From positions 62,001-126,000 of the forward strand of contig JAFWEV010000025.1 in the NCBI GenBank assembly GCA_017512745.1: a stretch of DNA of 64,000 nucleotides, given 5' to 3'. The notes beneath the pieces are model-generated. The model was not told where the DNA came from and did not search any database. It saw only the letters and a program-made list of their open reading frames with translations. The stretch is from Oscillospiraceae bacterium. GTDB taxonomy: Bacteria > Bacillota > Clostridia > Oscillospirales > Ruminococcaceae. Of the stretch, positions 11,515 through 34,475 are shown one piece after another; within the stretch, counting starts at the first letter, position 1; every line of letters starts with the position of its first letter. The position numbers and the translations under genes are program-made.

Positions 11515-11829
11515 TTGAGCATTCTAGAAGAGATCAAAAGCGCAGAACTGACTGCAGCCGGTGAGAAGGCACGTATTATAGAAAGTGCCCGCAAAGAGGC
11601 TGAAGATATTATTTCCGCGGCTGAAATCAAGTCGAAGGAAATGCATTCCGATGCAAAGGAACAGGCAGCAGCCATAGTAAGTGATTATATTGAGAAAGCC
11701 AAAGAGGCATCTGCTCTTTCCAGAAAGGAATCTCTTGAGAGAGATTCCGCGCTTGTGGAAAAAGCTTCCTCCAATCTCGATGCTGCTGTGGATTTCGTCA
11801 TAAAGGGCATAGAGGGTGATCTTGTATGA
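11515..11829 (+). CDS. ntpF: V-type ATP synthase peripheral-stalk subunit H (NtpF-like)
   Basis: A 104-residue, Ala/Glu/Lys-rich, fully helical protein with no membrane segment, as expected for the coiled-coil peripheral-stalk subunit that pairs with subunit E (called NtpF in Enterococcus, H or G elsewhere). The start is TTG at 11515, preceded by GAGGA about ten bases upstream; the nearby ATG at 11508 is in another frame. The last codons overlap the ntpI start as ATGA, giving translational coupling. It is the first gene of the nine-gene operon, the same place as ntpF in E. hirae. Confidence 0.85.
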   Translation: MSILEEIKSAELTAAGEKARIIESARKEAEDIISAAEIKSKEMHSDAKEQAAAIVSDYIEKAKEASALSRKESLERDSALVEKASSNLDAAVDFVIKGIEGDLV

Positions 11830-13682
11830 TCGTTCCCATGAAACATATCGATATCTGTGCTATGCAGAGCGACAGGGAAGAACTGCTTCGCTCGCTTCAG
11901 CGCGCGTCCGTCATGATGATCGTTTCCGATGACGAAACAGTCAGTGCCGGCAATACTGAAGCCTTAGAACAGAATTATATTGATGCCAACGAAGCGATCG
12001 CTTTCACCAAGTCTTCGGGGAAAGTCAGCGGGCTGCGTCCGGAAAACGTTGTCTCTTTCGACGATCTGGATAAGGCTGCCGGCGAGTATGCGCCTCTTGT
12101 CAGCGACATGCTGGCGACGAAAGAATTGCTCGAAGGCAAAGAGAGAGAACTTGACCGTCTGAATTCACAGATAGACGAACTTCTCCCGTGGAAAGATCTC
12201 GAAATGGATCTGGGTGAGGGTTCTGACACTAAAGCGTGTCATAAGTTTTTCGGCTTCCTGCCAATGAACACCACCATCTCCATACCTGACGGTCTCCCTG
12301 TTGATATAGAGACATACGGTTCTTCTGCTAAAGGAACCGCCTGTATGTGCATTGCCTACCACACCGCAGTGGAAGAAGCCGAGGATATGCTGAGAGAGAT
12401 GGGGTTCTCCGAGACTCCGCTTCCAAACGCAGACGGAACTCCTGCCGAAGCGCTGAAAACTCTTGAAGACAGGCGTACGGCGGTGGAAGATGAGATTTCC
12501 TCCCTCAAAAAGACAGCAAGCGGGTATACCTCATCCATCGATCAGCTCGAGATGGACAGAGACTCCGCTGCAACAGAGCTCGCGCGTGCACAGGTCCCCG
12601 TATCCCTTACGGACAAGACCTTTATGATATCAGGCTGGGTGGCATCCGACAGAGTGGACGAGCTCAAAACGATCGTTCTGGGTGTTGTTCCCTATGCTCT
12701 TATCGATGTCAGAGATGCCGAAGAGAGCGAGCAGCCCCCAACACTTACAAAAAACAACAAGTTTATATCCCAGTTCGAGACCCTGACAGATATGTTCTCA
12801 AGACCGTATCCGCGCGGAGTGGATCCAAACCCCGTCATGGGTGTCTGGTACTGGATAATTTTCGGCATGATGATGGGCGATGCAGGTTACGGTGTCCTCA
12901 TGCTTATCCTGTTTGCTGTGCTCAAGAAAGTCATGAGACCGCGGGGAGAAACGAAAAAGCTCATCAATCTGCTGCACTTCAGCAGCGTGACAACAATATT
13001 CTGGGGTATAGTCTTCGGTAGCTATTTCGGCGCCGAATGGTTCCCCCCTCTCCTCTTTACACCGCTGGATAAGCCGGTGGAAGCCCTGATCTTCAGCATA
13101 ATAATCGGCGTTCTTCATATCTTCTCCGGAATGATAATCAAAATGTACGACCTCATAAGGAACGGACATGTGATGGACGCGATCTTCGATCAGCTGAGCT
13201 GGATAGTTCTCCTTACCGGCATCGGCTTCCTGGTCATTCCCGCTCTCAAGACCGCAGGCATGATCATGGCTATTGCCGGCGCGGCGGTCATTCTCCTCAC
13301 CGGCGGCAGAGACAAGCCGAACATCTTCGGAAAGATCAGCGGCGGACTGCTGTCACTTTACAACATCTCAAGTTACTTCAGCGACATAGTGTCGTACACA
13401 AGAATCATCGCTCTGATGCTCTCGAGCGGAGTCATAGGAATGGTCATGAACCTGCTAGCATCAATGGTGCAGGGTTCTATTATCGGCTACTTCTTCTCTT
13501 TCCTCATATATATTGCCGGACACGCTTTCAATCTGGTCATGGGTCTCCTGTCTGCTTATGTCCATGACAGCCGTCTGCAGTATATTGAGTTCTTCGGCAA
13601 ATTCTACGACGGCGGCGGTTATGCTTTTGATCCGCTTTCCGCCGATACAAAATATGTTACGCTGAACGATCAGCGCAAATGA
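11826..13682 (+). CDS. ntpI: V-type ATP synthase subunit I (membrane a subunit)
   Basis: A 618-residue protein. The N-terminal half (about 1-320) is soluble and helical; the C-terminal half begins around FSRPYPRGVDPNPVMGVWYW and carries about seven or eight membrane segments, including the GMMMGDAGYGVLM region conserved in V/A-type a subunits. With the NtpK ring it forms the ion path of the rotary motor. Start ATG overlaps the previous stop. It matches the usual length of bacterial NtpI. A 49-base gap with a GGAGGAT site separates it from ntpK. Confidence 0.95.
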   Translation: MIVPMKHIDICAMQSDREELLRSLQRASVMMIVSDDETVSAGNTEALEQNYIDANEAIAFTKSSGKVSGLRPENVVSFDDLDKAAGEYAPLVSDMLATKELLEGKERELDRLNSQIDELLPWKDLEMDLGEGSDTKACHKFFGFLPMNTTISIPDGLPVDIETYGSSAKGTACMCIAYHTAVEEAEDMLREMGFSETPLPNADGTPAEALKTLEDRRTAVEDEISSLKKTASGYTSSIDQLEMDRDSAATELARAQVPVSLTDKTFMISGWVASDRVDELKTIVLGVVPYALIDVRDAEESEQPPTLTKNNKFISQFETLTDMFSRPYPRGVDPNPVMGVWYWIIFGMMMGDAGYGVLMLILFAVLKKVMRPRGETKKLINLLHFSSVTTIFWGIVFGSYFGAEWFPPLLFTPLDKPVEALIFSIIIGVLHIFSGMIIKMYDLIRNGHVMDAIFDQLSWIVLLTGIGFLVIPALKTAGMIMAIAGAAVILLTGGRDKPNIFGKISGGLLSLYNISSYFSDIVSYTRIIALMLSSGVIGMVMNLLASMVQGSIIGYFFSFLIYIAGHAFNLVMGLLSAYVHDSRLQYIEFFGKFYDGGGYAFDPLSADTKYVTLNDQRK

Positions 13683-13731
13683 TCTTTATTTATTATTTTA
13701 ATCGTTGACGCGATTAAGGAGGATATAACGT

Positions 13732-14202
13732 ATGTTTAAAAACCCAATGTCAATCGTCTTAATCGGAGTTGCTATTGCAGCTGCTCTTCCAGGCATCGGT
13801 TCAGCCTACGGCGTTCATGCCGCAGGTAAGGCTGCAGCCGGGGTTGTCTCCGACAAACCTGAACTGTTCGGAAAACTGCTTGTTCTGCAGGCTCTGCCTG
13901 GCACACAGGGAATCTACGGCTTCCTCGTAGCAGTGCTCATTCTCGTCAGATCGGGTATTCTCGGCGGCGGCGCGGCAGCTCTGACAACCGAAACCGCTTT
14001 TGCCTATTTCGGCAGCGGTCTCGCCATCGCACTCGGCGGCCTCTTCTCCGGTATTTATCAGGGCAGAGTCGCTGCTGCATCCATCCTCATGACCGCAAAA
14101 CAGCCGGATGCATCCGCAAGGGGCATTACAATGACCGCTCTGGTTGAGACTTACGCGATCCTTGCTCTCCTTGTTTCGATCCTTGCTCTCTTCAGCATCT
14201 GA
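13732..14202 (+). CDS. ntpK: V-type ATP synthase subunit K (rotor-ring proteolipid) with Na+ site residues
   Basis: A 156-residue protein with four membrane helices arranged as two hairpins, as in NtpK. The ion site residues known for Enterococcus hirae NtpK (Leu61, Thr64, Gln65, Gln110, Glu139) have counterparts at Leu55, Thr58 and Gln59 in LPGTQGIYGF, Gln110 in SGIYQGRVAAASI and Glu139 in TALVETYAIL. H+-specific rings usually lack the Gln ligands, so Na+ coupling is predicted. It forms the rotating c-type ring in the membrane. The gene sits between ntpI and ntpE as in the E. hirae operon. Confidence 0.95.
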   Translation: MFKNPMSIVLIGVAIAAALPGIGSAYGVHAAGKAAAGVVSDKPELFGKLLVLQALPGTQGIYGFLVAVLILVRSGILGGGAAALTTETAFAYFGSGLAIALGGLFSGIYQGRVAAASILMTAKQPDASARGITMTALVETYAILALLVSILALFSI

Positions 14203-14231
14203 TCATTATTCACATATAAAGGATATTAACA

Positions 14232-14822
14232 GTGAGTAGTAAAAACATAATCGAAAAGATAAATGCGGATTATATCGCGGAGGCAAACGAAGTGCGCAGC
14301 TCTCTGCTCAGCGAGGCATCCTCAAGAGCTGATGAGATCCTCAGTGCCGCAAAGCAGGCTGCAGATGCAGTGCTTGCAGGTGCGAAGCGCCGCGGCGAAG
14401 AAGAAATGCGCCGCGCCGCACTCGTGGCATCTCTCGATTCGAGAAAGGCTACTCTTGAGGCAAAGCGCTCTCTGGTCGAAAAGGTGTTCGAAAAGGTCAC
14501 AAACGCCATCGACAGCTTTGATGATGACCGCTGGTCATCCTTCATGGTCAACCTGATATCTTCTTCAGGCGCAGAGGGAAATGAGGATATCTATGTCCCG
14601 GAGTCCTGTGCAGACAGGTTCTCTTCTCTCAAGATCATTGACAAAGTCAACAAGGGCGGGAAATCCTTCAAGTACGCCGGCACAACCGATGCCATCCGTT
14701 CCGGAGTTCTTATTTCAGGTCCGGATGCAGATATAAACTGCTCTGTCGACACTCTCATCGCCGATTGGCGTTCAGTACATGAGATCGACGTTTCCGATAT
14801 CCTGTTCAAAGAGGAGGAATAA
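14232..14822 (+). CDS. ntpE: V-type ATP synthase subunit E
   Basis: A 196-residue protein. The first about 110 residues are Ala/Arg/Glu-rich helix and the C-terminal part is a globular alpha/beta domain, the standard layout of the peripheral-stalk E subunit that holds the catalytic A3B3 head. The start is GTG at 14232, preceded by AAAGGA. It pairs with the small coiled-coil subunit encoded first in the operon. The stop is three bases before the ntpC start. Confidence 0.9.
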   Translation: MSSKNIIEKINADYIAEANEVRSSLLSEASSRADEILSAAKQAADAVLAGAKRRGEEEMRRAALVASLDSRKATLEAKRSLVEKVFEKVTNAIDSFDDDRWSSFMVNLISSSGAEGNEDIYVPESCADRFSSLKIIDKVNKGGKSFKYAGTTDAIRSGVLISGPDADINCSVDTLIADWRSVHEIDVSDILFKEEE

Positions 14823-14824
14823 TA

Positions 14825-15736
14825 ATGCCCTCTCAAGGATATCAGTATGCTTCAGGTAGAATAGCCGCTCTGGACTCAAGGCTGCCTTCCGAGCAGGAAG
14901 TCAGAAACGCGTCTTCCGGAGGGCTTGATAATCTTGTGCGTCTGTTTTCCCAAGCTGAACTCCTGGAGGCTTCCGCACGACCGGATTCCGTCGATACCCT
15001 GAGGAATCTGTGCGAAACAAAACTTCGCGATGAGCTCGGCGAACTCTGTCCCGACCGCAGATTGTTTGAAGTGCTGTGGATGGACGGAGACCTCATTAAT
15101 CTGAAGCTTCTTATCAAACTGCGTTTGCTCGGTCTTCCGCTTGACTCGGAAACTCTCGCGCTCGGCACTGTTCCCGCTCAGGAAATCGTGCATGCAGTTG
15201 AAGAAAAAGACTACTCCTGTTTTGATGATCTTCAGAAAGAGATTCTCGATATAGACAATAAGGTCGAAAAAGACAAAGACATTATGGCGGCATGCGCTGC
15301 ACTTGATGAGCTGTTCATCGCCAGGCAGAAATCCGAATCAGAAAAGCTCGGATATGCTCCTGTGGCTTCTTTCTATGAGACGAAAGCGGAATATGCGGAT
15401 ATTCTTACCGCTCTGCGCTGTCTGTCTCTCAACATACCAAAGAAGACGATGTACTCTCTGCTGATCGGCCCAAACAAAGACAGGATAATAGGATCCTATG
15501 ATGATCTTCCGGATTCTCTTGTTTCTGTCGCCCCATTAAACATACGAGAAGATATTCAGGCATACTTGCTGGACCGTGATCTGTCAAAACTGTCAAACAG
15601 GATCAAAGCAGTCGGTACGGGTTCCCTTTCCGGTTCCTTTGCCGCACTTGAAGGTCCTGCCGCACTTGTTGCGTATGTTTCAAAGGTCAGATCCCTTCTC
15701 ACTTCCATATCATTGAAAAAAGAAACGAGGTCCTGA
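14825..15736 (+). CDS. ntpC: V-type ATP synthase subunit C
   Basis: A 303-residue, all-helical soluble protein in the position of ntpC (d-type subunit), which forms the funnel joining the proteolipid ring to the central stalk. Similarity at the residue level is low, as is usual for this subunit; assignment rests mainly on size, helical character and strict operon order between E and F. GAGGAGGAATAATA overlaps the end of ntpE and supplies the ribosome site. Confidence 0.88.
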   Translation: MPSQGYQYASGRIAALDSRLPSEQEVRNASSGGLDNLVRLFSQAELLEASARPDSVDTLRNLCETKLRDELGELCPDRRLFEVLWMDGDLINLKLLIKLRLLGLPLDSETLALGTVPAQEIVHAVEEKDYSCFDDLQKEILDIDNKVEKDKDIMAACAALDELFIARQKSESEKLGYAPVASFYETKAEYADILTALRCLSLNIPKKTMYSLLIGPNKDRIIGSYDDLPDSLVSVAPLNIREDIQAYLLDRDLSKLSNRIKAVGTGSLSGSFAALEGPAALVAYVSKVRSLLTSISLKKETRS

Positions 15737-15739
15737 TAA

Positions 15740-16069
15740 ATGAGTAACGGTATAGCTGCTGTCGGAGATCGCGGTACAGTGATGATATGGAGAGCGATAG
15801 GCGCTGAAACGGTCTTCTGTGAGACCAAGGAAGAGACCGAACGCGCAATAAGGAAGCTGGCAAAACAGGATTATGCCATCATATACATTACAGAAAACTG
15901 TGCCAAACTTATACCGGACACAATAGAAAAATACAAAATGAGCAAAACACCTGCAATCATTCCGATCCCCGGAAGAGACGGCAAGACCGGATTTTCCGAG
16001 GAAGCTCTGCACAGGGTTGTGGAGAAGGCTATCGGTGCAGATATCTTATTTAAGGAGGAGAATAACTGA
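15740..16069 (+). CDS. ntpG: V-type ATP synthase subunit F (NtpG)
   Basis: A 109-residue alpha/beta protein of the CheY-like subunit F type. It contains the [16 protein letters not shown] start, the [14 protein letters not shown] core strand and the IPGRDG segment that is typical of the family. It is a central-stalk subunit that binds D and regulates rotation. Called NtpG in Enterococcus, where the order C-G-A is the same. The final codons contain AAGGAGGAGAATAAC, the ribosome site of ntpA. Confidence 0.93.
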
Positions 16070-16071
16070 TT

Positions 16072-17862
16072 ATGGATGCTCCTGAAATGCAAGTCATTTC
16101 CGGCAAGATCGTAAAAGTCGCCGGTCCGCTGATAGTGGCCTCCGGTCTCAAAAACAGCAAACTTTACGATGTTGTCCGAGTCAGTGAGAACAAACTGATA
16201 GGAGAGATCATCGAACTGCGCGGTGATATCGCTTCTATACAGGTTTATGAAGATACGGCAGGACTCGGACCCGGAGAACCGGTTTTTGTAACCGATGAGC
16301 CTCTTTCCGTTGAACTCGGACCCGGCCTCATCGGAGGTATTTACGACGGTATCCAGCGTCCCCTCACAGCCATAAGGGACATCGTCGGGGACAGGATCAC
16401 CAGAGGTGTCGAAGTTCCGAAAATATCAAGAGATCTCAAGTGGACATTCGTTCCTTCCGTGGAAGAAGGCGCCGAAGTGTCGGGAGGAGATATTCTGGGT
16501 CACGTCCAGGAAACCGACGCCGTAGATCACAAGATCATGGTTCCTCCCGGAGTCAAGGGAAAGGTCTCATGGATCTATTCCGGCGAGTGCACCGTGACGG
16601 AAACAATAGCAAGGATCGCCACAGATGCCGGATATGAACACGAACTGTCAATGCTTCAGAAATGGCCTGTCCGTGTTCCCAGACCTTATGTGGAAAAAAT
16701 CGCTCCGACTGACCCGATGATCACCGGTCAGCGCGTTATCGATACACTGTTTCCCATCGCCAAGGGTGGTGTAGCTGCTATTCCGGGTCCTTTCGGATCA
16801 GGCAAGACAGTCGTTCAGCATCAGTTGGCAAAGTGGGCTGATGCAGACATCATCGTATATATCGGCTGCGGTGAGCGCGGAAACGAGATGACGGACGTTC
16901 TCAATGAATTCCCGGAACTGAAAGATCCGAGAACAGGATCGGCTCTCATGAACAGAACCGTCCTTATCGCAAACACATCCGATATGCCGGTTGCCGCACG
17001 TGAAGCATCCATCTATACGGGAATCACTATCGCCGAGTATTTCAGGGATATGGGATACAAAGTCGCCATCATGGCTGACTCCACCTCCAGATGGGCCGAA
17101 GCCCTCCGTGAAATGTCCGGACGTCTGGAAGAGATGCCGGGTGATGAAGGATATCCCGCTTACCTCTCATCCCGTCTTGCAGCCTTCTATGAAAGAGCCG
17201 GTGTTGTCAGCTGCCTCTCAGAGCACCAGCCGAGAGAAGGTGCCATTACGGCTATCGGTGCTGTTTCACCTCCGGGCGGCGACACATCCGAGCCTGTCTC
17301 CCAGGCGACCCTAAGGATCGTAAAAGTTTTCTGGGGCCTCTCTTCCGCTCTTGCATATCAGAGACACTTCCCGGCCATTGACTGGCTGACAAGTTATTCC
17401 CTGTATAAAGATTCCGTCGGGCAGTGGTTCGATGAGAATATCGGAGATAACTGGAGCGCCATGGTCACAAAAGCGATGGCCATACTTCAGGAAGAAGCAG
17501 AGCTCAATGAGATCGTCCGACTGGTCGGTGTCGATGCTCTGGGATATGATGACAGACTGAAACTGGAAGTCGCGAGATCCATAAGAGAAGACTATCTCCA
17601 TCAGATAGCTTTCGACTCGGTGGATACTTACACCTCTCCTTCTAAACAGTACTCAATGCTTAGCGTTATCCTCTCCTGGTACCAGCAGTCGCTTGACGCG
17701 CTGCACAATGGTGCAGATTTCCAGGATATTCTCAAAATGCCGGTCATCGAGCAGATCGGACGTATGAAGGGTATTCCGGAAAATGAATTCAAGGACAGGA
17801 TCGAAAAGATAGAGGCTGAACTCAAACGCGAAGTTTCCGATCTGACCAAGGAGGATGCCTGA
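16072..17862 (+). CDS. ntpA: V-type ATP synthase catalytic subunit A
   Basis: A 596-residue catalytic subunit of full length. The P-loop [17 protein letters not shown] is present, followed by the [11 protein letters not shown] motif, and the non-homologous bulge region specific to V/A-type A subunits lies before the P-loop. It binds and hydrolyses or makes ATP in the A3B3 head in the cytoplasm. The stop overlaps the ntpB start by one base (TGATG). No defect is visible. Confidence 0.98.
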
Positions 17863-19238
17863 TGCGTAAAGAATATAAGACAATTAAAGAAGTAGTCGGA
17901 CCCCTTATGCTGGTAGACAGTGTTGAGGGCGTCAAATATGACGAACTTGTGGAGATCGAGCAGGCCAACGGCGAGATCAGGCACGGCAAAGTCCTTGAAG
18001 TAAACCGCGACAGGGCTCTTGTTCAGCTCTTCGAAAGTTCGCAGGGTCTCAAGCTGACCACCGCAAAGGCAAAATTCCTCGGTCACGGCACACAGCTTAA
18101 CGTCAGTCGTGATATGCTCGGAAGAGTCTTCGACGGAATGGGCAATCCTATTGACGGCGGAGCCGCTATCATTCCGGAAAAAACACTCGATATCAACGGT
18201 GCTCCCATAAATCCTGCGGCACGTGACTATCCCGCGGAATTCATCCAGACAGGTATCTCGGCAATCGATGCTTTGAATACGCTGGTCAGAGGGCAGAAGC
18301 TTCCGGTGTTCTCCGGTTCCGGTCTGCCTCATGCTCAGCTCGCAGCTCAGATAGCCCGTCAGGCAACTGTTCTCGGAACGAGAGAGCCGTTCGCCGTTGT
18401 GTTTGCCGCAATGGGCATCACTTTTGAGGAAGCAAACTACTTCATTTCCGACTTCAGAAGAACAGGCGCGATCGAGCGTGCCGTCATGTTCATGAACCTC
18501 GCCAACGACCCTGCCGTTGAGAGAATCGCAACTCCGCGTATGGCTATCACATGCGCAGAGTACCTTGCATATGATCTTGGAATGCATGTTCTCGTAATCC
18601 TTACGGATATCACGAACTATGCCGAGGCTCTCCGCGAAGTCTCCGCGGCAAGAAAAGAGATTCCGGGACGACGCGGGTATCCGGGTTATCTGTATACCGA
18701 CCTTGCTAGCCTCTATGAACGCGCAGGAAGAATCAAAGGCAATCCTGGCTCTATCACACAGATCCCGATCCTCACAATGCCTGAAGATGACAAGACCCAT
18801 CCTATTCCGGACCTTACGGGATATATCACGGAAGGGCAGATAATCCTCTCAAGAGACCTGAACCGCAGAGGTATCACACCTCCTATCGATGTTCTCCCGT
18901 CACTGTCCCGTCTTAAAGACAAGGGCACCGGTAAGGGCAAGACCCGTGAAGACCACTCCGATACGATGAACCAGCTGTTCTCCGCATATGCAAGAGGAAA
19001 AGAGGCCAAGGAGCTCGCTGTCATCCTCGGCGAGGCCGCTCTTTCCGATGTGGATAAACTCTATTCCAAATTCGCCACAGAATTTGAAGAGCGCTACGTA
19101 TCTCAGGGCTGGGAGACCAACAGAACCATCGAAGAGACTCTCGATCTCGGATGGGACCTCCTTTCCATTCTTCCGAAATCCGAACTCAAACGTATCCATC
19201 AGGAATATATCGACAAATACTATCCAAACAAGGAGTGA
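17862..19238 (+). CDS. ntpB: V-type ATP synthase subunit B
   Basis: A 458-residue non-catalytic subunit. In place of a P-loop it has [18 protein letters not shown], as expected for B subunits, and it carries the [22 protein letters not shown] and [19 protein letters not shown] regions conserved in the family. It alternates with A in the A3B3 head and supplies the arginine finger. It is translationally coupled to ntpA and followed ten bases later by ntpD. Confidence 0.98.
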
Positions 19239-19247
19239 TTTGAGTCA

Positions 19248-19877
19248 ATGGCAAAAGTCAATCCTACCAGAATGGAGCTTACGCGCCTCAAAAAGCGCCG
19301 CGCAACAGCGGTCAGAGGCCACAAGCTCCTGAAGGACAAAAGAGATGAGATGATCAGAAGATTTATTCTTCTTGCTCAGAGAGAACAGAAACTCAGGATC
19401 GAATGCGATAATGGGTTAGCTGAGTGTGCCGTTCGCTTTGCGGACGTCGGAGCATCCATGGGACAGGCTGCCGCCACAGAAGCTCTTATCTATCCCGTTA
19501 ACAGCGCTGCCATCAGCGTTGGTGAGCAGAATATCATGAGTGTCCGGGTTCCCACCTTCAAGGTAGTGCAGCAGGCCTCAAAAATCAGTCTCTCCTACTC
19601 CATGGCAACTACCCCTCCCGAGCTGGATGACGCCGTTCTTCAGCTCAGCCGCCTTCTCAATCAACTTATAGAGCTTGCTGAGACACAGAAAGCATGCGAG
19701 ATGCTCTCAGATGAGATAGAGAAGACCAGAAGAAGAGTCAACGCCCTAGAGCATGTCATGATCCCCGAATTGGATCAGCAGATCCGCGAGATCACCATGA
19801 AACTCGATGAGAACGAGCGCGGTACCCTGTCCAGGCTCATGAAAGTCAAAGATATGATCCAGGAGGACGTTGGCTGA
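19248..19877 (+). CDS. ntpD: V-type ATP synthase subunit D
   Basis: A 209-residue central-axle subunit. The N-terminus NPTRMELTRLKKR is the family hallmark, and the protein is a long antiparallel coiled coil with a short middle hairpin, ending in a Lys/Asp-rich helix. It rotates inside A3B3 and contacts subunits F and C. It is the last of the nine ATPase genes; ntpH and ntpJ (the K+ transporter that follows in Enterococcus) are absent and an unrelated repeat protein follows. Confidence 0.96.
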   Translation: MAKVNPTRMELTRLKKRRATAVRGHKLLKDKRDEMIRRFILLAQREQKLRIECDNGLAECAVRFADVGASMGQAAATEALIYPVNSAAISVGEQNIMSVRVPTFKVVQQASKISLSYSMATTPPELDDAVLQLSRLLNQLIELAETQKACEMLSDEIEKTRRRVNALEHVMIPELDQQIREITMKLDENERGTLSRLMKVKDMIQEDVG

Positions 19878-19951
19878 GCACGTCAAACCGTCAAACATTT
19901 TTAATAAATGTGTGATATATTAAACTTACATTTTTGAAGGGAGCAAGCAAT

Positions 19952-20650
19952 ATGGATTATAAAGACATTGAAGATGCAGTCGAAAACACTGTTGAAAAAG
20001 TAGCTGATGCAGTCGAAGACAGCACTGAAAAGGTCGCAGATGTTCTCGATGAACATATCGAAGTAGCAGAAGACGTAGCAGAAGACGTAGCGGATGCTCT
20101 TGAGGATTTCGTTGAAGAGGCAATACCTACTGTGGAGCCGGAGAAACCGTCATTTGTTGACGATGTTGCGGATACCATTGAAGAGGGAGCTTCCAAAACA
20201 AAAGAATTTGTCAGCAATGCTTATGACAAGGCAAAGGATTATTCCGGCATTGCATATGAAAAGGGCAAAGCTTTCGTGGGCACTGTCGCTGAAAAGGGCA
20301 AGGGATATGCTTCGACCGCTGCTACATTTATCGGTGATGCGGTTCGCGATCTCAGAGACGCAACAAAAATGAGCGTTGCAAGAACAAATGAGAAATCTGC
20401 TCTCAAGCGCAGTTATGAAGACCTCGGAAAACTCTATTACGAGGTAATGGCTGACAAGGCTGAGGGAGAATTCCTCGTATGCTGCAATAATATCAAAGCT
20501 TCTCTCGATAAGATCGCCGATCTCACAGCTCAGATCGAAGCTATCCGCTCCAAGACAAATGTCCAGGTCGTGGATGCAACAGATGCTACTGAGGAACTCG
20601 ATGAGATCCAGGCTGTCGTTGAAGGCAAGTCAGAAGACACCGAAGAATAA
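19952..20650 (+). CDS. Unrecognised protein with two blocks of 11-residue amphipathic repeats
   Basis: 232 residues from the ATG at 19952, which follows GAAGGGAGC; an earlier in-frame start at 19934 has no ribosome site. No family is recognised. Residues 10-53 form four 11-residue acidic units (VENTVEKVADA, VEDSTEKVADV, LDEHIEVAEDV, AEDVADALEDF). Residues 79-133 form five more, Lys/Gly/Tyr-rich units (GASKTKEFVSN, AYDKAKDYSGI, AYEKGKAFVGT, VAEKGKGYAST, AATFIGDAVRD). The last 95 residues are a predicted coiled coil with LGKLYYEVM, then an acidic tail. Eleven-residue periodicity is known from LEA, apolipoprotein and synuclein helices that lie on membranes, so lipid binding is inferred. No signal peptide. 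It has its own terminator and follows ntpD by 75 bases. Confidence 0.8.
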   Translation: MDYKDIEDAVENTVEKVADAVEDSTEKVADVLDEHIEVAEDVAEDVADALEDFVEEAIPTVEPEKPSFVDDVADTIEEGASKTKEFVSNAYDKAKDYSGIAYEKGKAFVGTVAEKGKGYASTAATFIGDAVRDLRDATKMSVARTNEKSALKRSYEDLGKLYYEVMADKAEGEFLVCCNNIKASLDKIADLTAQIEAIRSKTNVQVVDATDATEELDEIQAVVEGKSEDTEE

Positions 20651-20671
20651 TCGCAACAAACGTTCCTGGAA

Positions 20672-20700
20672 GGTGCTGATTTTTATCAGCACCTCTTTTC
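20672..20700 (+). terminator. Terminator of the 11-residue-repeat protein gene
   Basis: Stem GGTGCTGAT/ATCAGCACC with a TTTT loop, followed by TCTTTTCTTATTT. Confidence 0.88.
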
Positions 20701-20762: not shown

Positions 20763-23321
20763 TTACCACACGTAACTGTAGTTCATATCAACTCCGCCGG
20801 AAACTCCGTCAACCGTTCCGACCGAAGTATACTGCCACATATTGTATCTGCCTGCATAGCTGGACTTTGTTCCGCCTGTATAGTGAGCAAGCCAGATATA
20901 ATAATTGGAGAACTCAGACGGATAGACCTTGTATTCCAGGTAATATTTGTTTGCGTATACCATTGCGCTGTATCCGCTGGATCGGCATGTATCACAGAAC
21001 GCCACGCAGATCTTTGTGAGATCAGATCTTGAAAGTGAATTCGTTCTGGCATTAGGTGCAGCATACTCCACATCGATGACTATCGGAAGCTCTATGGAAT
21101 ATCCTGAAGATCTGACAAGACTTATACATGCACTGGCTTCCTCTACTGCCTCGGCAGTGTTTATTGCCTGTGAGAAGAAATATACACCGACCTTGAGTCC
21201 TGCAGCTTTTGCTCCGGCAATATTAGCCCGGAACATATCATCCTCAACGATCTTTCCTGAACCGTATCCTCTGAATCCGCATCTGATGATTACGAAGCTG
21301 ACTCCCGAGGCCTTTACCCTCGCCCAGTCGATCGAATTCTGCCACGTGGATACATCGATTCCGATCGTGGCTGTCGCGTTCTTCTGAAGCGCTCCGTCGT
21401 TATCGAAGTAATATGTGATGCCGTCAATGATCTGCTGACCGGTAACCTTATTTCCGTTCTGGTCGTAGTAGTACGTTTTACCATCCTGGTCATGCCAGCC
21501 GCGATACTCCGTTACTTTTTCCGTGGTTTTGATCTCGATAGCTTCGATCTCGTAATCCTTTGTATAATTCGCAAGGTCTCCGAATGATTCCGGATAGTCG
21601 TTTCCGCCAAGTCCTACGGAACCTTCCTGCGGCTGCTCTTCGCTGCTGGCAGGCGGCTCTTCCGAGATCGGTTCAGAACTGACAGGAGGCTCGCTGCTTA
21701 CGGGCTCTTCAGAACTTGCAGGCGTCTCCGAGCTTGCAGGTGTCTCCGAACTCGCAGGGGTCTCCGAGCTCGCAGGAGTTTCCGAGCTCGCAGGAGTTTC
21801 CGAGCTTGCAGGAGTTTCCGAACTCGCAGGTGTCTCTGAACTCACAGGCGGCTCAGGAGGAGTGCTGCTCTCCTCGATCTTTTCAAAATTGGCGAGAACC
21901 GTAACCGATGTAGCCGGCATAGAGAAGTTCAGGGCAGGATCCGTATGGCTGCCGCTCAGAGATCCCTCTACTATGGTCCATGCGCTGAACCTATATCCGC
22001 TGTTTGCCTCAGCCGTGATAGTGATCGGAGTTCCTTCTTTAACTTTATCGCCCGAATTGAGAGATCCTGTTACAGCGGCGATCTTACCGCCCTCTCCTGC
22101 TGACCACTTGAACACATATCCGTCAGTCGTCGGCGCAGGGGCTTCCTTATATACACGGTAATAACCGGTCATATATCCATCGGCATCTATTTCAGGAACA
22201 TAGTCGGATACCGTGCCGTCTCTCTTGAGAAGTCTGCCGTTGCTGTCGACCCTGCATTTGTACTTCACGGTCGTCACCGGCTTTTCAACCTCTTTGACCT
22301 CATTATCGACATGAGGTGTGGTATCCGTAACTTCAGACACCCCGGGATCCGCTCCGGCTCCTGTATTGCCGCCGTAGTTCGGGTCATCCTGTGATGCGAC
22401 GATCTGTGATGAGTCAACGATCTTCTCATTGATGTTTGCGATCATCTGTCTTGCAACTTTCGGAAGGACGTCCACCTCGATGTTTTCGGCACTGTATCCG
22501 GCGATCTCAACGAGCTCGACCGTATATTTGCCCTCGGCAATGCCGTCAATATACATTGATCCGTCCATGTCGTCATCGGTATAATACTGAATCTCATCAT
22601 CAGGAGAAGTAACGGCAAATTCAAAGGCAATTCCCGTGATCCTGTCGCCGTTCTCATCCTCTACCCTGATGCTCATATCCTCCTCAACAGAGGTTCCGAC
22701 CATTGTTACATTTCGTTCGCTGGTGAGCACAGGAACATCTGCCCGAGTCTCGGCGATCTCCATCTTGTGATAAGCGGTAAGATCTGCAAGGAATGAAGTT
22801 GCATTGAGCGTTGGATCTGCCGTGCTTGCTCTCACGACTCCGCCGTAATAGAAGACCGCACTCGTGCACATCAGAAGAAGAATACAGGCAGCTATGGGCT
22901 TTCTCCAGTCAACTCCGCCGTCTTTGCCGGTCAGTTTGGCAAGCCAGCCTGATTTTGCCGCTGCCTTCTTTGCCTTTTTATCTTTCTTTCCGCTTGCATG
23001 AAAGACGGTTGCTGCGCTCTCAACAGTTTTTTCTTCAGAGCTGTCCGAATCGGGCGATACCTCTTCCATGATCTCCGGGACACTCCCGGATGTCTCTGCA
23101 ATTTCTTCTATGCCTGCGGCGCTGGCAAAGACAGCCTCCGCACTCTCAAGTTCTCCTGTCGGGAACATGTCGGCCGAAGCATTCTCGCTGTTCTCTATGT
23201 TTGTGAACTGGAAAGTTTCCCCGTTTGCAGGAGAATCCAACGTTTCCGCTGAGTTACCGTTTTCATCCGCATCAAACAGAAGAGTTGAAAAATCTTTCTC
23301 TAATTCATTATTCCTATCCAT
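20763..23321 (-). CDS. Membrane-anchored modular GH25 lysozyme-like hydrolase
   Basis: 852 residues from the ATG at 23321 (GGAGGG seven bases upstream). Modules in order: acidic N-terminal region without a signal peptide, then Lys-rich (to about 141); one membrane segment (about 143-161); a SpaA/prealbumin-like domain (about 217-294); a Gly/InlB-repeat-like domain (about 397-480, GYRFSAWTIVEG); seven SSETPA repeats plus a Ser/Pro/Glu linker (about 494-570); a choline-binding-type cell-wall repeat pair (GKTYYYDQNGNKVTG, GITYYFDNDGAL, about 604-644); and a GH25 barrel to the end. GH25 catalytic acids are visible in IGIDVSTWQ and VIDVEYA. It should cleave N-acetylmuramoyl bonds of peptidoglycan while tethered by its N-terminus (type II topology). 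Confidence 0.92.
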   Translation of the reverse strand: MDRNNELEKDFSTLLFDADENGNSAETLDSPANGETFQFTNIENSENASADMFPTGELESAEAVFASAAGIEEIAETSGSVPEIMEEVSPDSDSSEEKTVESAATVFHASGKKDKKAKKAAAKSGWLAKLTGKDGGVDWRKPIAACILLLMCTSAVFYYGGVVRASTADPTLNATSFLADLTAYHKMEIAETRADVPVLTSERNVTMVGTSVEEDMSIRVEDENGDRITGIAFEFAVTSPDDEIQYYTDDDMDGSMYIDGIAEGKYTVELVEIAGYSAENIEVDVLPKVARQMIANINEKIVDSSQIVASQDDPNYGGNTGAGADPGVSEVTDTTPHVDNEVKEVEKPVTTVKYKCRVDSNGRLLKRDGTVSDYVPEIDADGYMTGYYRVYKEAPAPTTDGYVFKWSAGEGGKIAAVTGSLNSGDKVKEGTPITITAEANSGYRFSAWTIVEGSLSGSHTDPALNFSMPATSVTVLANFEKIEESSTPPEPPVSSETPASSETPASSETPASSETPASSETPASSETPASSETPASSEEPVSSEPPVSSEPISEEPPASSEEQPQEGSVGLGGNDYPESFGDLANYTKDYEIEAIEIKTTEKVTEYRGWHDQDGKTYYYDQNGNKVTGQQIIDGITYYFDNDGALQKNATATIGIDVSTWQNSIDWARVKASGVSFVIIRCGFRGYGSGKIVEDDMFRANIAGAKAAGLKVGVYFFSQAINTAEAVEEASACISLVRSSGYSIELPIVIDVEYAAPNARTNSLSRSDLTKICVAFCDTCRSSGYSAMVYANKYYLEYKVYPSEFSNYYIWLAHYTGGTKSSYAGRYNMWQYTSVGTVDGVSGGVDMNYSYVW
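21715..21840 (-). repeat. Seven tandem 18-bp repeats encoding SSETPA
   Basis: Seven consecutive 18-bp units of the type CTYGCAGGNGTYTCYGAR, starting at 21715, 21733, 21751, 21769, 21787, 21805 and 21823. Units 4 and 5 are identical; the next unit to the right is degenerate. They form a flexible linker in the GH25 protein, and copy number could vary by slippage. Confidence 0.95.
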
Positions 23322-23434
23322 CAACTATCCCTCCGGACCCTTGCGGTCCAAAAAGTATTGAATAATGCTGATTCTATTAAGAATATCTGTTCCAAAGGTA
23401 ACCTAAACACGCCTCTGATGTCACAGATTAAGTA

Positions 23435-24359: not shown

Positions 24360-25163
24360 TTGGGAAAGATTATTTCGGTTACTAACCAAAAAGGCGGTGT
24401 AGGAAAAACCACCACTGCTGTCAATCTTGCTGCTGCGCTTGGTGCCAAGGGCAAAAACGTTCTCCTCGTGGACATCGACCCGCAGGGAAACGCGACCAGC
24501 GGTGTAGGCATCAATAAGAGACTTATAAGGAATTCCTCGTATACTCTGCTCATGGGAAGAAGCGGCATCGACGATACCATCTTGGCGACAAAGTATTCCG
24601 GTCTCTCCATAATACCTGCAGATATTAATCTGGCGGGTGCAGAACTTGAGCTGGTCTCTCTTGATAACCGCGAATATCGTCTCAGAACAGCTATAGTAGA
24701 GAAAAGAGATTATTATGACTTTATCATCATCGACTGCCCGCCATCTCTCGGTCTTCTGACTGTAAACGGGCTTTCAGCATGTGATACGATAATAATACCG
24801 ATACAGAGCGAGTATTACGCTCTTGAAGGCCTTGCTCAGCTGCTGACGACAGTAAGACAGATAAAGCGTCTTTACAATCCGACCATTGAGATCGAAGGCG
24901 TTCTTCTTACCATGTTCGATTCAAGGCTGAATCTGACCATGCAGGTCATGGCGGAGGTCAAGAAGTATTTCCCGCAGAAAGTTTATTCGACTGCGATTCC
25001 CAGAAATATACGGTTGTCCGAAGCTCCCAGTCATGGCAAGCCTATAAAGTATTACGATCCGTCATCCCGTGGAGCAGTATCCTACGATATGCTTGCGGAT
25101 GAAGTAATCGCGAAGAACAGTCCTCAGGTACCTTCTGTACCCGAAGCGGCTGAAAACACATAA
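24360..25163 (+). CDS. parA: Chromosome partitioning ATPase ParA/Soj
   Basis: A 267-residue ParA/MinD-type ATPase. The deviant Walker A KGGVGKTTT with the signature Lys lies at residues 11-19 and the DIDPQGN and IIDCPPSLG motifs follow, so it is a chromosomal Soj. It starts with TTG at 24360, preceded by AGAGG; no better start exists before the conserved MGKIISVTNQKGG. ParA-ATP dimers on the nucleoid are stimulated by ParB to segregate origins, and Soj also acts on DnaA. The gene is 12 bases before parB, and two parS sites lie just upstream. Confidence 0.97.
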   Translation: MGKIISVTNQKGGVGKTTTAVNLAAALGAKGKNVLLVDIDPQGNATSGVGINKRLIRNSSYTLLMGRSGIDDTILATKYSGLSIIPADINLAGAELELVSLDNREYRLRTAIVEKRDYYDFIIIDCPPSLGLLTVNGLSACDTIIIPIQSEYYALEGLAQLLTTVRQIKRLYNPTIEIEGVLLTMFDSRLNLTMQVMAEVKKYFPQKVYSTAIPRNIRLSEAPSHGKPIKYYDPSSRGAVSYDMLADEVIAKNSPQVPSVPEAAENT

Positions 25164-25175
25164 GGAGGACTGTGA

Positions 25176-26021
25176 ATGGCAAAAGAACTCGGCCTCGGAA
25201 GAGGTCTCGGAGCCCTTTTTGCAGATGATCCTGCAGATAGCGGCAACGTTACAGAGATCCCTCTTGCAGAGATCCAGCCCAACCGGTCTCAGCCCCGCAG
25301 GGATTTTGATGAAAAAGCTCTCGCTGAACTGACCGAATCGATCAGGAACTACGGTGTGATTCAGCCGATCCTTGTAAAGCCGATCCCCAGCGGCGGATAT
25401 ATGATAGTAGCCGGCGAAAGACGCTTCAGAGCCGCAATGAATGCCGGGCTTTTCTCGATACCGGCTGTTGTGCGCTCTATGAGTGAACAGGACTCTTCTG
25501 AGATCGCGCTTGTCGAAAACCTTCAGCGTGAAGATCTCAATCCCGTCGAGGAGGCAAGAGGTATAAAGCAGCTCATTGACGAATACGGATACACTCAGGA
25601 GGAAGCTGCATCCAGGATCGGATCGTCAAGGCCTTCTGTCACTAACGCGCTTCGCATCCTGTCATTGCCGGAAGATGTCATTTCCATGCTTGAAAGCGGA
25701 AGCCTTTCAGTAGGACATGCTAAAGCTCTTCTCTCATTGCAGGACCCGGCTCTCATCTCCACCATCGCGAAAGAAGTTGCGGAAAACGGATATTCCGTAA
25801 GGCAGACCGAAAAACTGTGTAAAAGCGCAGGTAAACCGCGATCTATTAAGCCGAAGCCTCTTGATCCGGATGTGACAGAGGTCGAGCTTGCGCTTAAAAA
25901 CGATCTCGGCGTCGAGGTTTCGGTAAAATGCAATAACGGCAAAGGATCTTTGACGATAAACTTCTATTCGAAAGAACAGTTATACGATTTTGCAAATAAA
26001 TTAGGCAGAAAGGACACCTAA
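25176..26021 (+). CDS. parB: Chromosome partitioning CTPase / parS-binding protein ParB (Spo0J)
   Basis: A 281-residue ParB. The N-terminal start MAKELGLGRGLGALF, the IQPNRSQPRRDF segment, the CTP-binding GERRFRAAMNAG motif and the ENLQREDLNPVEEA region are all present, followed by the helix-turn-helix (TQEEAASRIGSSRPSVTNALR) and a C-terminal dimer domain. It binds parS and spreads as a clamp. An AAGGAGG site lies nine bases before the ATG. serS follows by four bases, so the transcript likely continues. Confidence 0.97.
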   Translation: MAKELGLGRGLGALFADDPADSGNVTEIPLAEIQPNRSQPRRDFDEKALAELTESIRNYGVIQPILVKPIPSGGYMIVAGERRFRAAMNAGLFSIPAVVRSMSEQDSSEIALVENLQREDLNPVEEARGIKQLIDEYGYTQEEAASRIGSSRPSVTNALRILSLPEDVISMLESGSLSVGHAKALLSLQDPALISTIAKEVAENGYSVRQTEKLCKSAGKPRSIKPKPLDPDVTEVELALKNDLGVEVSVKCNNGKGSLTINFYSKEQLYDFANKLGRKDT

Positions 26022-26025
26022 TACA

Positions 26026-27306
26026 ATGATAGATATTAAATTAATAAGAACTGATCCTGACCTTGTCAGAGAAAATATCAAAAAGAAGTTCCAGGATGAG
26101 AAACTTCCCCTCGTAGATGAGGTCATTGAGCTGGACAAGCAGTTCCGTGCAGCCAGAACCCGCTGCGACGAGCTTCGCTCACAGCGCAACTCCATCAGCA
26201 AACAGATAGGCGTTCTGATGGGACAAAAAAAGCGCGATGAAGCTGAGGAAGTCAAAAAGCAGGTCCAGGACATAAACAATGAGCTTGCTTCCCTTGAAAT
26301 CAAGGAAGAAGAGTATGAGGCAGAGATCAAAAAGAGAATGATGGTCATTCCTCAGATAATTGACGATTCCGTTCCTATCGGTAAAGACGATTCCGAAAAC
26401 GTCGAGATCGAAAGATTCGGCGAGCCCGTTGTCCCCGATTACGAGATCCCTTATCATATCGATATCATGGAGCGTCTTGCAGGCATTGATCTCGATTCCG
26501 CAAGAAAAACCAGCGGCAACGGTTTCTATTATCTGAAAGGCGATATCGCCCGTCTGCACTCCTCCATTCTCAGCTATGCCAGAGATTTCATGATCGGCAG
26601 AGGCTTTGAATACTATATCCCTCCGTTCATGATCCGCGGCAATGTTGTCAACGGTGTCATGAGCTTTACAGAAATGGAAAACATGATGTACAAGATCGAA
26701 GGCGAGGATCTTTACCTTATAGGCACAAGCGAACACTCCATGATCGGAAAATTCATCGATTCCATTCTCGAAAAAGATCAGCTCCCTCAGACGCTCACAA
26801 GCTACAGCCCCTGCTTCAGAAAGGAAGTCGGTGCTCATGGTATCGAAGAACGTGGAGTATACCGTATCCATCAGTTTGAAAAGCAGGAAATGATAGTTGT
26901 CTGTGAGCCTGAGGACAGCAAAAAATGGTACGACGTCCTCTGGCAGAATACCGTAGATTTCTTCCGCAGCATGGATATACCGGTACGCACGCTTGAATGC
27001 TGCAGCGGAGATCTCGCAGACCTCAAGGTCAAGAGCTGCGACGTTGAGGCGTGGAGCCCCAGGCAGCAGAAGTACTTTGAAGTCGGCAGCTGCTCAAATC
27101 TCGGTGATGCACAGGCTCGCAGACTCGGAATCAGGATCCGCGACAAAGAGAAAGGCACGTATTTTGCGCACACCCTCAACAATACATGCGTTGCTCCTCC
27201 CCGTATGCTCATAGCTTTCCTTGAGAACAACCTCCAGGAAGACGGCAGGATCCGCATTCCCGAACCTCTCCGTCCATACATGGGCGGTCAGGAATACATC
27301 GGCTGA
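26026..27306 (+). CDS. serS: Serine-tRNA ligase
   Basis: A 426-residue class II synthetase of normal length. The N-terminal two-helix arm (about 1-105) is followed by the catalytic core with the IGTSEHSM region (motif 1/TSE loop), PCFRKEVGAHG (motif 2) and the C-terminal NNTCVAPPRMLIAFLENN (motif 3). It charges tRNA-Ser; a tRNA-Ser gene lies 7 kb away. It follows parB by four bases and ends at a strong terminator. Confidence 0.98.
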   Translation: MIDIKLIRTDPDLVRENIKKKFQDEKLPLVDEVIELDKQFRAARTRCDELRSQRNSISKQIGVLMGQKKRDEAEEVKKQVQDINNELASLEIKEEEYEAEIKKRMMVIPQIIDDSVPIGKDDSENVEIERFGEPVVPDYEIPYHIDIMERLAGIDLDSARKTSGNGFYYLKGDIARLHSSILSYARDFMIGRGFEYYIPPFMIRGNVVNGVMSFTEMENMMYKIEGEDLYLIGTSEHSMIGKFIDSILEKDQLPQTLTSYSPCFRKEVGAHGIEERGVYRIHQFEKQEMIVVCEPEDSKKWYDVLWQNTVDFFRSMDIPVRTLECCSGDLADLKVKSCDVEAWSPRQQKYFEVGSCSNLGDAQARRLGIRIRDKEKGTYFAHTLNNTCVAPPRMLIAFLENNLQEDGRIRIPEPLRPYMGGQEYIG

Positions 27307-30064: not shown

Positions 30065-30141
30065 GGCGGCATAGCTCAGTTGGCTAGAGCATTCGGTTCA
30101 TACCCGAAGTGTCACCGGTTCGAATCCAGTTGCCGCTACCA
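30065..30141 (+). tRNA. tRNA-Met (anticodon CAT)
   Basis: 77 bases with a full cloverleaf: acceptor GGCGGCA/TGCCGCT (G-U first pair), anticodon loop TTCATAC, T-loop GGTTCGAATCC and encoded CCA. A CAT anticodon can also belong to an Ile2 tRNA; elongator Met is the default reading. Confidence 0.9.
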
Positions 30142-30147
30142 CAAGGT

Positions 30148-30222
30148 GGCCCGTTGGTCAAGTGGTTAAGACACGGCCCTTTCACGGCTGTAACATGGGT
30201 TCAAATCCCGTACGGGTCACCA
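30148..30222 (+). tRNA. tRNA-Glu (anticodon TTC)
   Basis: 75 bases: acceptor GGCCCGT/ACGGGTC, anticodon loop CTTTCAC, T-arm GGGTTCAAATCCC and encoded CCA. It is six bases after tRNA-Met and shares its promoter and terminator. Confidence 0.95.
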
Positions 30223-34386: not shown

Positions 34387-34475
34387 GGAGACGTATCGAA
34401 GTGGTCATAACGGGACTGACTCGAAATCAGTTGAGCCGCAAGGCTCCGTGGGTTCGAATCCCACCGTCTCCGCCA
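34387..34475 (+). tRNA. tRNA-Ser (anticodon CGA)
   Basis: 89 bases with a long variable arm (GAGCCGCAAGGCTC) typical of serine tRNA; acceptor GGAGACG/CGTCTCC, anticodon loop CTCGAAA, discriminator G and encoded CCA. Confidence 0.95.

Follow-up and report, generated by a model that had tools for sequence, protein, structure and literature searches.

The window, that is, the whole 64,000-nucleotide stretch of DNA analysed here, carries on its forward strand a gene of 232 codons plus a stop (19952..20650; ATG at 19952, stop codon at 20648-20650), which was recognized as an open reading frame and encodes an all-helical protein of 232 amino acids. A GGGAGC resembling a ribosome-binding (Shine-Dalgarno) site lies just 5' of the ATG. 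Upstream is a complete V-ATPase operon (11515-19877), whose tightly spaced genes were assigned by reading the ORFs and follow the order G/H-I-K-E-C-F-A-B-D; the best relatives of its ntpD are just 59-61% identical. An AT-rich spacer of 74 bp (19878..19951, + strand; 31% GC) leads from ntpD to the gene, exceeds every gap within the operon, and showed no scored consensus promoter on the + strand. Downstream, a terminator-like hairpin with a T-rich tail (20671-20694, + strand) is likely the end of the transcription unit. The Rfam search of the window found neither a riboswitch nor a leader in the vicinity of the gene, and its sole matches were tRNAs (30065-30138, 30148-30219, and 34387-34472). 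A convergent gene (20763-23324, - strand) contains an 853-aa, GH25-type lysozyme-like ORF in which a TM region and two kinds of repeats, SSETPA and cell-wall-binding-like, can be made out, all assigned by eye. Further along, parA-like, parB-like, and seryl-tRNA synthetase-like genes (again by eye) stand consecutively at 24360-27306 on the + strand, which suggests a region close to the replication origin.

Neither a signal peptide nor a TM segment is evident by eye in the 232-aa protein, which on this basis is cytosolic, and no CxxC pairs are found on reading its sequence. The preliminary description of this locus had pointed to two blocks of 11-residue amphipathic units, and this periodicity was borne out. 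When the blocks were delimited as in that description (residues 10-53 and 79-133) and compared with composition-preserving shuffles, the strongest self-similarity was at lag 11, with 12/33 identities in block 1 (BLOSUM +60, p ~0.0005 or less) and 13/44 in block 2 (BLOSUM +51, p<0.0005); in block 2, the other lags within the range of 3 to 15 were not significant. The maximum of the hydrophobic moment lies at 98.5-100 degrees; for block 2, the moment is 0.298 at 98.2 degrees (11/3) versus 0.116 at 102.9 degrees (7/2). An 11/3 helix with an apolar face, as proposed earlier, therefore stands: heptad periodicity and a missing apolar face were both looked for and neither was found, since lag 11 is the strongest and the 11/3 moment is larger than the 7/2 moment. 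The number of units, given previously as four plus five, had to be revised to five plus six that share a register and cover residues 2-56 and 68-133, with units starting at residues 2, 13, 24, 35, and 46 in block 1 and at 68, 79, 90, 101, 112, and 123 in block 2. Apolar columns 1, 2, 5, 8, and 9 are common to both blocks (column 1 being weak in block 1), and on an 11/3 wheel they form, in the order 8, 1, 5, 9, 2, a single sector of ~130 degrees. The blocks are separated by a proline-containing linker, IPTVEPEKPS (residues 58-67; 20123..20152, + strand).

Block 1 (residues 2-56; 19955..20119, + strand) consists of five acidic units, DYKDIEDAVEN, TVEKVADAVED, STEKVADVLDE, HIEVAEDVAED, and VADALEDFVEE. 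It contains 2 K/R versus 17 D/E and is strongly acidic, as helical as block 2, and highly amphipathic, and its HeliQuest-type lipid score is strongly negative. At the DNA level, the similarity of the first two units that had been noticed before was confirmed as a 33-bp tandem repeat in two copies (19973..20038, + strand; 76% identical). A 12-bp tandem repeat, GTAGCAGAAGAC, present in 2.4 copies (20063..20091, + strand), also contributes to this block.

Block 2 (residues 68-133; 20153..20350, + strand) comprises six units, those at 79, 90, 101, and 112 being GASKTKEFVSN, AYDKAKDYSGI, AYEKGKAFVGT, and VAEKGKGYAST. Within residues 79-122, all 8 of the 8 lysines fall in columns 4 and 6, flanking the apolar face with the acids opposite, an arrangement with a chance probability of ~3e-7 for four units that were chosen after inspection. 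Column 8 is aromatic in every one of these units. Measured from the apolar centre, K/R residues lie at 98 degrees and D/E residues at 164 degrees (p=0.0004 by permutation), so that the likeness of the KTK-type cores to synuclein repeats extends to the geometry seen in synucleins and apolipoproteins. By geometry, residues 79-122 are a class-A (apolipoprotein/synuclein-like) amphipathic helix. Such a class-A pattern is typical of exchangeable apolipoproteins and synucleins. The apolar face is rich in A, V, G, and Y and moderately hydrophobic. With 9 K/R and 7 D/E, block 2 is nearly neutral; the acidic character ascribed to block 1 was correct, whereas the basic character ascribed to block 2 was not, so the contrast of acidic and basic halves had been overstated and their self-pairing by charge complementarity was not supported.

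The C-terminal part, described before as a coiled-coil end, is indeed helical but proved to be a helical hairpin that is conserved in relatives from many genomes. The region shared with relatives spans residues 109-207 (20276..20572, + strand), so that the last hendecads run into the hairpin, whose first helix carries YEDLGKLYYE and is followed by a turn at ~167-170 and a second helix at 171-206. An AlphaFold2 prediction of residues 109-207 made with one relative gave a helix at 112-166, a turn, and a helix at 171-206 (mean pLDDT 73). The full-length AlphaFold2 model built without relatives was of low confidence (pLDDT 50) and was set aside as evidence. A fold search with the hairpin returned nothing below E 0.001, only generic helical hairpins, and the PDB search gave weak coiled-coil matches alone, the best being designed coiled coils (E 5e-4). 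The protein ends in an acidic tail (residues 208-232; 20573..20647, + strand), located where most relatives have zinc ribbons.

By peptide patterns, no close relatives were found in the genome and viral collections. In 61 related genomes, homologues match the C-terminal part alone (~104-208, E to 2e-8), and residues ~109-205 match both zinc-ribbon and ribbon-less proteins with E down to 6e-11. The relatives have the form M-x-F-F-x-x-L-G-K-K-I-S ... KTK ... AKLN ... Y-x-x-L-G-K-L-Y-Y, mostly followed by zinc ribbons; the plan of the family is thus a short amphipathic N-terminal helix, a hairpin with the Y..LGKLYY motif, and, in most cases, C-terminal zinc ribbons. Within the same taxonomic family, a profile of the helical part matched 248/397 genomes (E<=1e-4); across the class, it matched 124/216 sampled genomes (E<=1e-6). 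In the source genome (~90% complete), the gene at 19952..20650 is the single family copy found. The 232-aa protein has both the motif Y..LG[KR]xYY in the homologous helical core and a hendecad-like amphipathic N-terminal helix directly N-terminal to the hairpin. The core of the family, as its sequences show, is an amphipathic N-terminal helix that continues into a short hairpin of antiparallel helices. Zinc ribbons are present in 68 of 99 distinct members and absent from 31, and so do not define it.

Against the 232-aa protein, all Pfam and NCBIfam models stay below their cut-offs, and across the helical regions of 17 members each model matches at most 2. No papers on the family were found in the open-access literature. 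The earlier statement that no bacterial family of this architecture had been described holds in so far as Pfam and NCBIfam have no model for it; the protein is no orphan, however, and the preliminary description had missed class-wide relatives that already bear the KTK helix and 11-residue indels. By its sequence, the 232-aa protein is a divergent member, expanded in hendecads and devoid of zinc ribbons, of a Clostridia-wide family that is unnamed and uncharacterised. The distance from start to motif, which is 48-49 residues as a standard, is 157 in this protein, by far the largest among the 99 members, and its 11 hendecads compare with ~3 in most relatives. It is the most repeat-rich family member found.

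The N-terminal helices of close relatives show exact 11-residue differences in at least four separate lineages (L028 vs L021; L152/L004/L153 vs L154-L156; L165/L166 vs L169, in one genus; and L171 vs L176, also in one genus). In three of the four, the inserted 33 bp matches the adjoining unit at 22-25/33 positions, which indicates tandem duplication. When members sharing at least 45% identity are aligned pairwise, 73/109 internal gaps have length 11 and the remainder are mostly of length 4 or 7, although these counts are non-independent and some of the 4s and 7s reflect uncertain start sites; gaps of 4 and 7 likewise preserve the helix face. Across family N-termini, lag 11 is the strongest (z 18, inflated by the kinship of members), and the moment is 0.48 versus 0.32 when shuffled. 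The class-A-like arrangement of charges also recurs, with a gap between D/E and K/R of 32.7 degrees in 55 relatives against -0.1 +/- 3.2 with permuted charges. The 11-residue unit is the step in which the family evolves, and the repeat array of the 232-aa protein, which has probably been lengthened by tandem duplication of 33 bp like that of its relatives, is thus the extreme of a family habit. Expansions of helical units were also observed C-terminal to the hairpin. The tail of a ribbon-less relative (L164:1483-1926) contains NTAEKVADAVESVEGVVKDAVDVS, strikingly like block 1, so that units of the block-1 type occur there as well, and that of a zinc-ribbon relative (L204:1447-2037) carries tandem acidic repeats, EKAEEECEKTVEQVEAAEEEYEKAAEQ....

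Several known systems resemble parts of this protein. The closest are the unnamed Clostridial 'zinc-ribbon domain' proteins, of which Pfam models the ribbons alone; they share the hairpin with Y..LG[KR]LYY, which is homologous, and the preceding amphipathic helix with KTK cores and 11-residue indels. The 232-aa protein differs from them in its 11 hendecads, its acidic first block and tail, and the lack of a ribbon. HP0958, CT398, and MSMEG_4306 (zf-RING_7, PF02591) are adaptors consisting of a coiled coil and a C-terminal zinc ribbon (PMC5947703), an order of hairpin and ribbon also seen in the zinc-ribbon relatives, and CT398 and HP0958 surfaced in the fold search of the hairpin, not significantly (E 0.3). 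However, the hairpin is much shorter here and is preceded by an amphipathic helix, and the CXXC-X18-26-CXXC ribbon is absent from the 232-aa protein; no PF02591 match was listed for this protein, or for the hairpins among the best 25 of 52 families. The alpha-synuclein family, with its 11-residue KTKEGV repeats, resembles block 2 only, in the 11/3 helix, interfacial lysines, polar-pole acids, and KTK-type cores, whereas the present protein is non-homologous, bacterial, attached to a hairpin, and provided with an acidic N-terminal block. Exchangeable apolipoproteins and apolipophorin-III are similar in their class-A helices and 11-mer periodicity and gave weak matches (PF01442, E 0.004; 1eq1, E 0.061), but PF01442 reached 17.3 bits against a cut-off of 90 and the domain organisation differs. 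Membership in the LEA, synuclein, or YtxH families was not upheld by the profiles, as LEA_4 and synuclein gave no match at E<=1 and YtxH scored 12.9 bits against 37.5. Matches to ZorA, EMYY lipoprotein, Lysozyme_like, and similar models were sub-threshold and were taken as helix or coiled-coil noise.

With moderate confidence, we regard the 232-aa protein as a cytosolic, peripheral-membrane adaptor working at the membrane surface, with lipid binding as part of this inference. Block 2, as an extension of the family's N-terminal helix, would lie flat on the inner leaflet as an 11/3 helix, with its apolar face down and its lysines at the headgroups in a synuclein- or apolipoprotein-like manner, and the N-terminal helix of the family would likewise adsorb to this side of the membrane. 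The hairpin (~134-206) may dimerise or bind a protein partner. Block 1 and the tail, being too acidic for an anionic membrane, would be kept off it and might act as a detachable cover or as a repelling brush that tunes adsorption. Where present, the zinc ribbons could add protein or nucleic-acid binding, by analogy with HP0958/CT398/MSMEG_4306. Against the surface adaptor, the HeliQuest-type lipid score of block 2 shows no excess over shuffles (1.26 vs 1.39, p=0.58) and was therefore dropped as proof of membrane binding, block 1 scores negative, and the apolar face is only moderately hydrophobic; family-wide, the score is slightly in excess (1.31 vs 1.20 +/- 0.06 shuffled). In addition, hendecads also form right-handed coiled coils, and lysines at the interface also occur in proteins that do not bind lipid.

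The same observations leave room for a soluble right-handed hendecad coiled-coil scaffold, in which the apolar stripes would pack block against block or copy against copy into an extended rod without lipid. Hendecads with apolar positions a-d-e-h build right-handed coiled coils and are their classic signature (PMC6131620); block 1 is highly amphipathic yet far too acidic for membranes, the lipid score is no higher than that of shuffles, and a helical hairpin also makes up the adjoining domain. On the other hand, the broad apolar sector (~130 degrees), which is Gly/Ala-rich in block 2, together with the interfacial lysines and the central position of the acids, is better suited to a surface than to a packed core, and AlphaFold2 gave no confident model of block-block packing. 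Since the lipid score of block 2 does not exceed that of shuffles and hendecads equally make coiled coils, no more than moderate confidence was placed in the surface adaptor, and the scaffold was kept as a distinctly less probable alternative.

A stress protectant of the LEA type, disordered in water and helical on drying, which would shield membranes or proteins, is improbable. Group-3 LEA proteins (LEA_4) do share tandem 11-mer amphipathic units with K/E-rich polar faces, and bacterial examples are known in Deinococcus (DosH/DrHD, PMC6559209) and Aggregatibacter (BilRI, PMC8096337). However, besides the unmatched LEA_4 profile, conservation in the family is highest in the hairpin rather than in the repeats, the majority of relatives are short and combine about three units with zinc ribbons, and the family is class-wide with no stress-gene context seen.

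An accessory part of the V-ATPase, such as an extra peripheral-stalk-like subunit, was discarded on grounds of context, sequence, and co-location and retains very little probability. The gene adjoins ntpD on the same strand, 74 bp downstream, and the stalk subunits E and G of A/V-type rotary ATPases also carry hendecads (PMC6131620). Yet the fixed place after ntpD from which a V-ATPase link might have been drawn was not found elsewhere: a family gene lies within 1.5 kb at 0/29 of the other closest same-family ntpD loci, and only 1/80 named ntpD loci has one nearby, in a zinc-ribbon form ~0.8 kb away. Apart from the window's own, no V-ATPase genes border the sampled family loci, whose neighbours vary between subfamilies. 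The operon already contains its stalk genes (11515-11829 and 14232-14822), in sequence the protein resembles no V subunit, E and G included (best E-value 1.2), and its codon usage differs (GC3 0.41 vs 0.55-0.60 for ntpB/ntpD). Given this absence from other ntpD loci and the family loci elsewhere without V-ATPase neighbours, the place after ntpD is an accident of the source genome, and the link to the V-ATPase is purely positional. A phasin coating a storage granule or lipid body can hardly be credited either, as the matches that favour it (PHA granule protein, E 0.014; phasin, 0.43; PhaP_Bmeg, 0.092; apolipoprotein, 0.004) are weak, are expected of any amphipathic helix, and all fall far under the curated cut-offs (15.5 vs 94.7 bits for the phasin/PHA granule protein match), and PHA synthase (PhaC_N) was not found in the 90% complete genome; a phasin or gas-vesicle-like identity was rejected.

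Extending the surface-adaptor reading to the whole family, it is tentatively suggested that these proteins constitute a Clostridia-wide 'synuclein-like' adaptor family, in which 33-bp units would set the length of an 11/3 class-A helix and thereby tune membrane affinity or curvature sensing, the 232-aa protein being the most expanded. The family is present in over half of the sampled Clostridia genomes, with a helical part that has no Pfam or NCBIfam model, so that at best its ribbon is annotated. Its exact 11-residue indels provide a natural length series of amphipathic helices on one conserved hairpin, which is useful for testing the evolution of 11/3 helices and membrane binding outside animals and plants.
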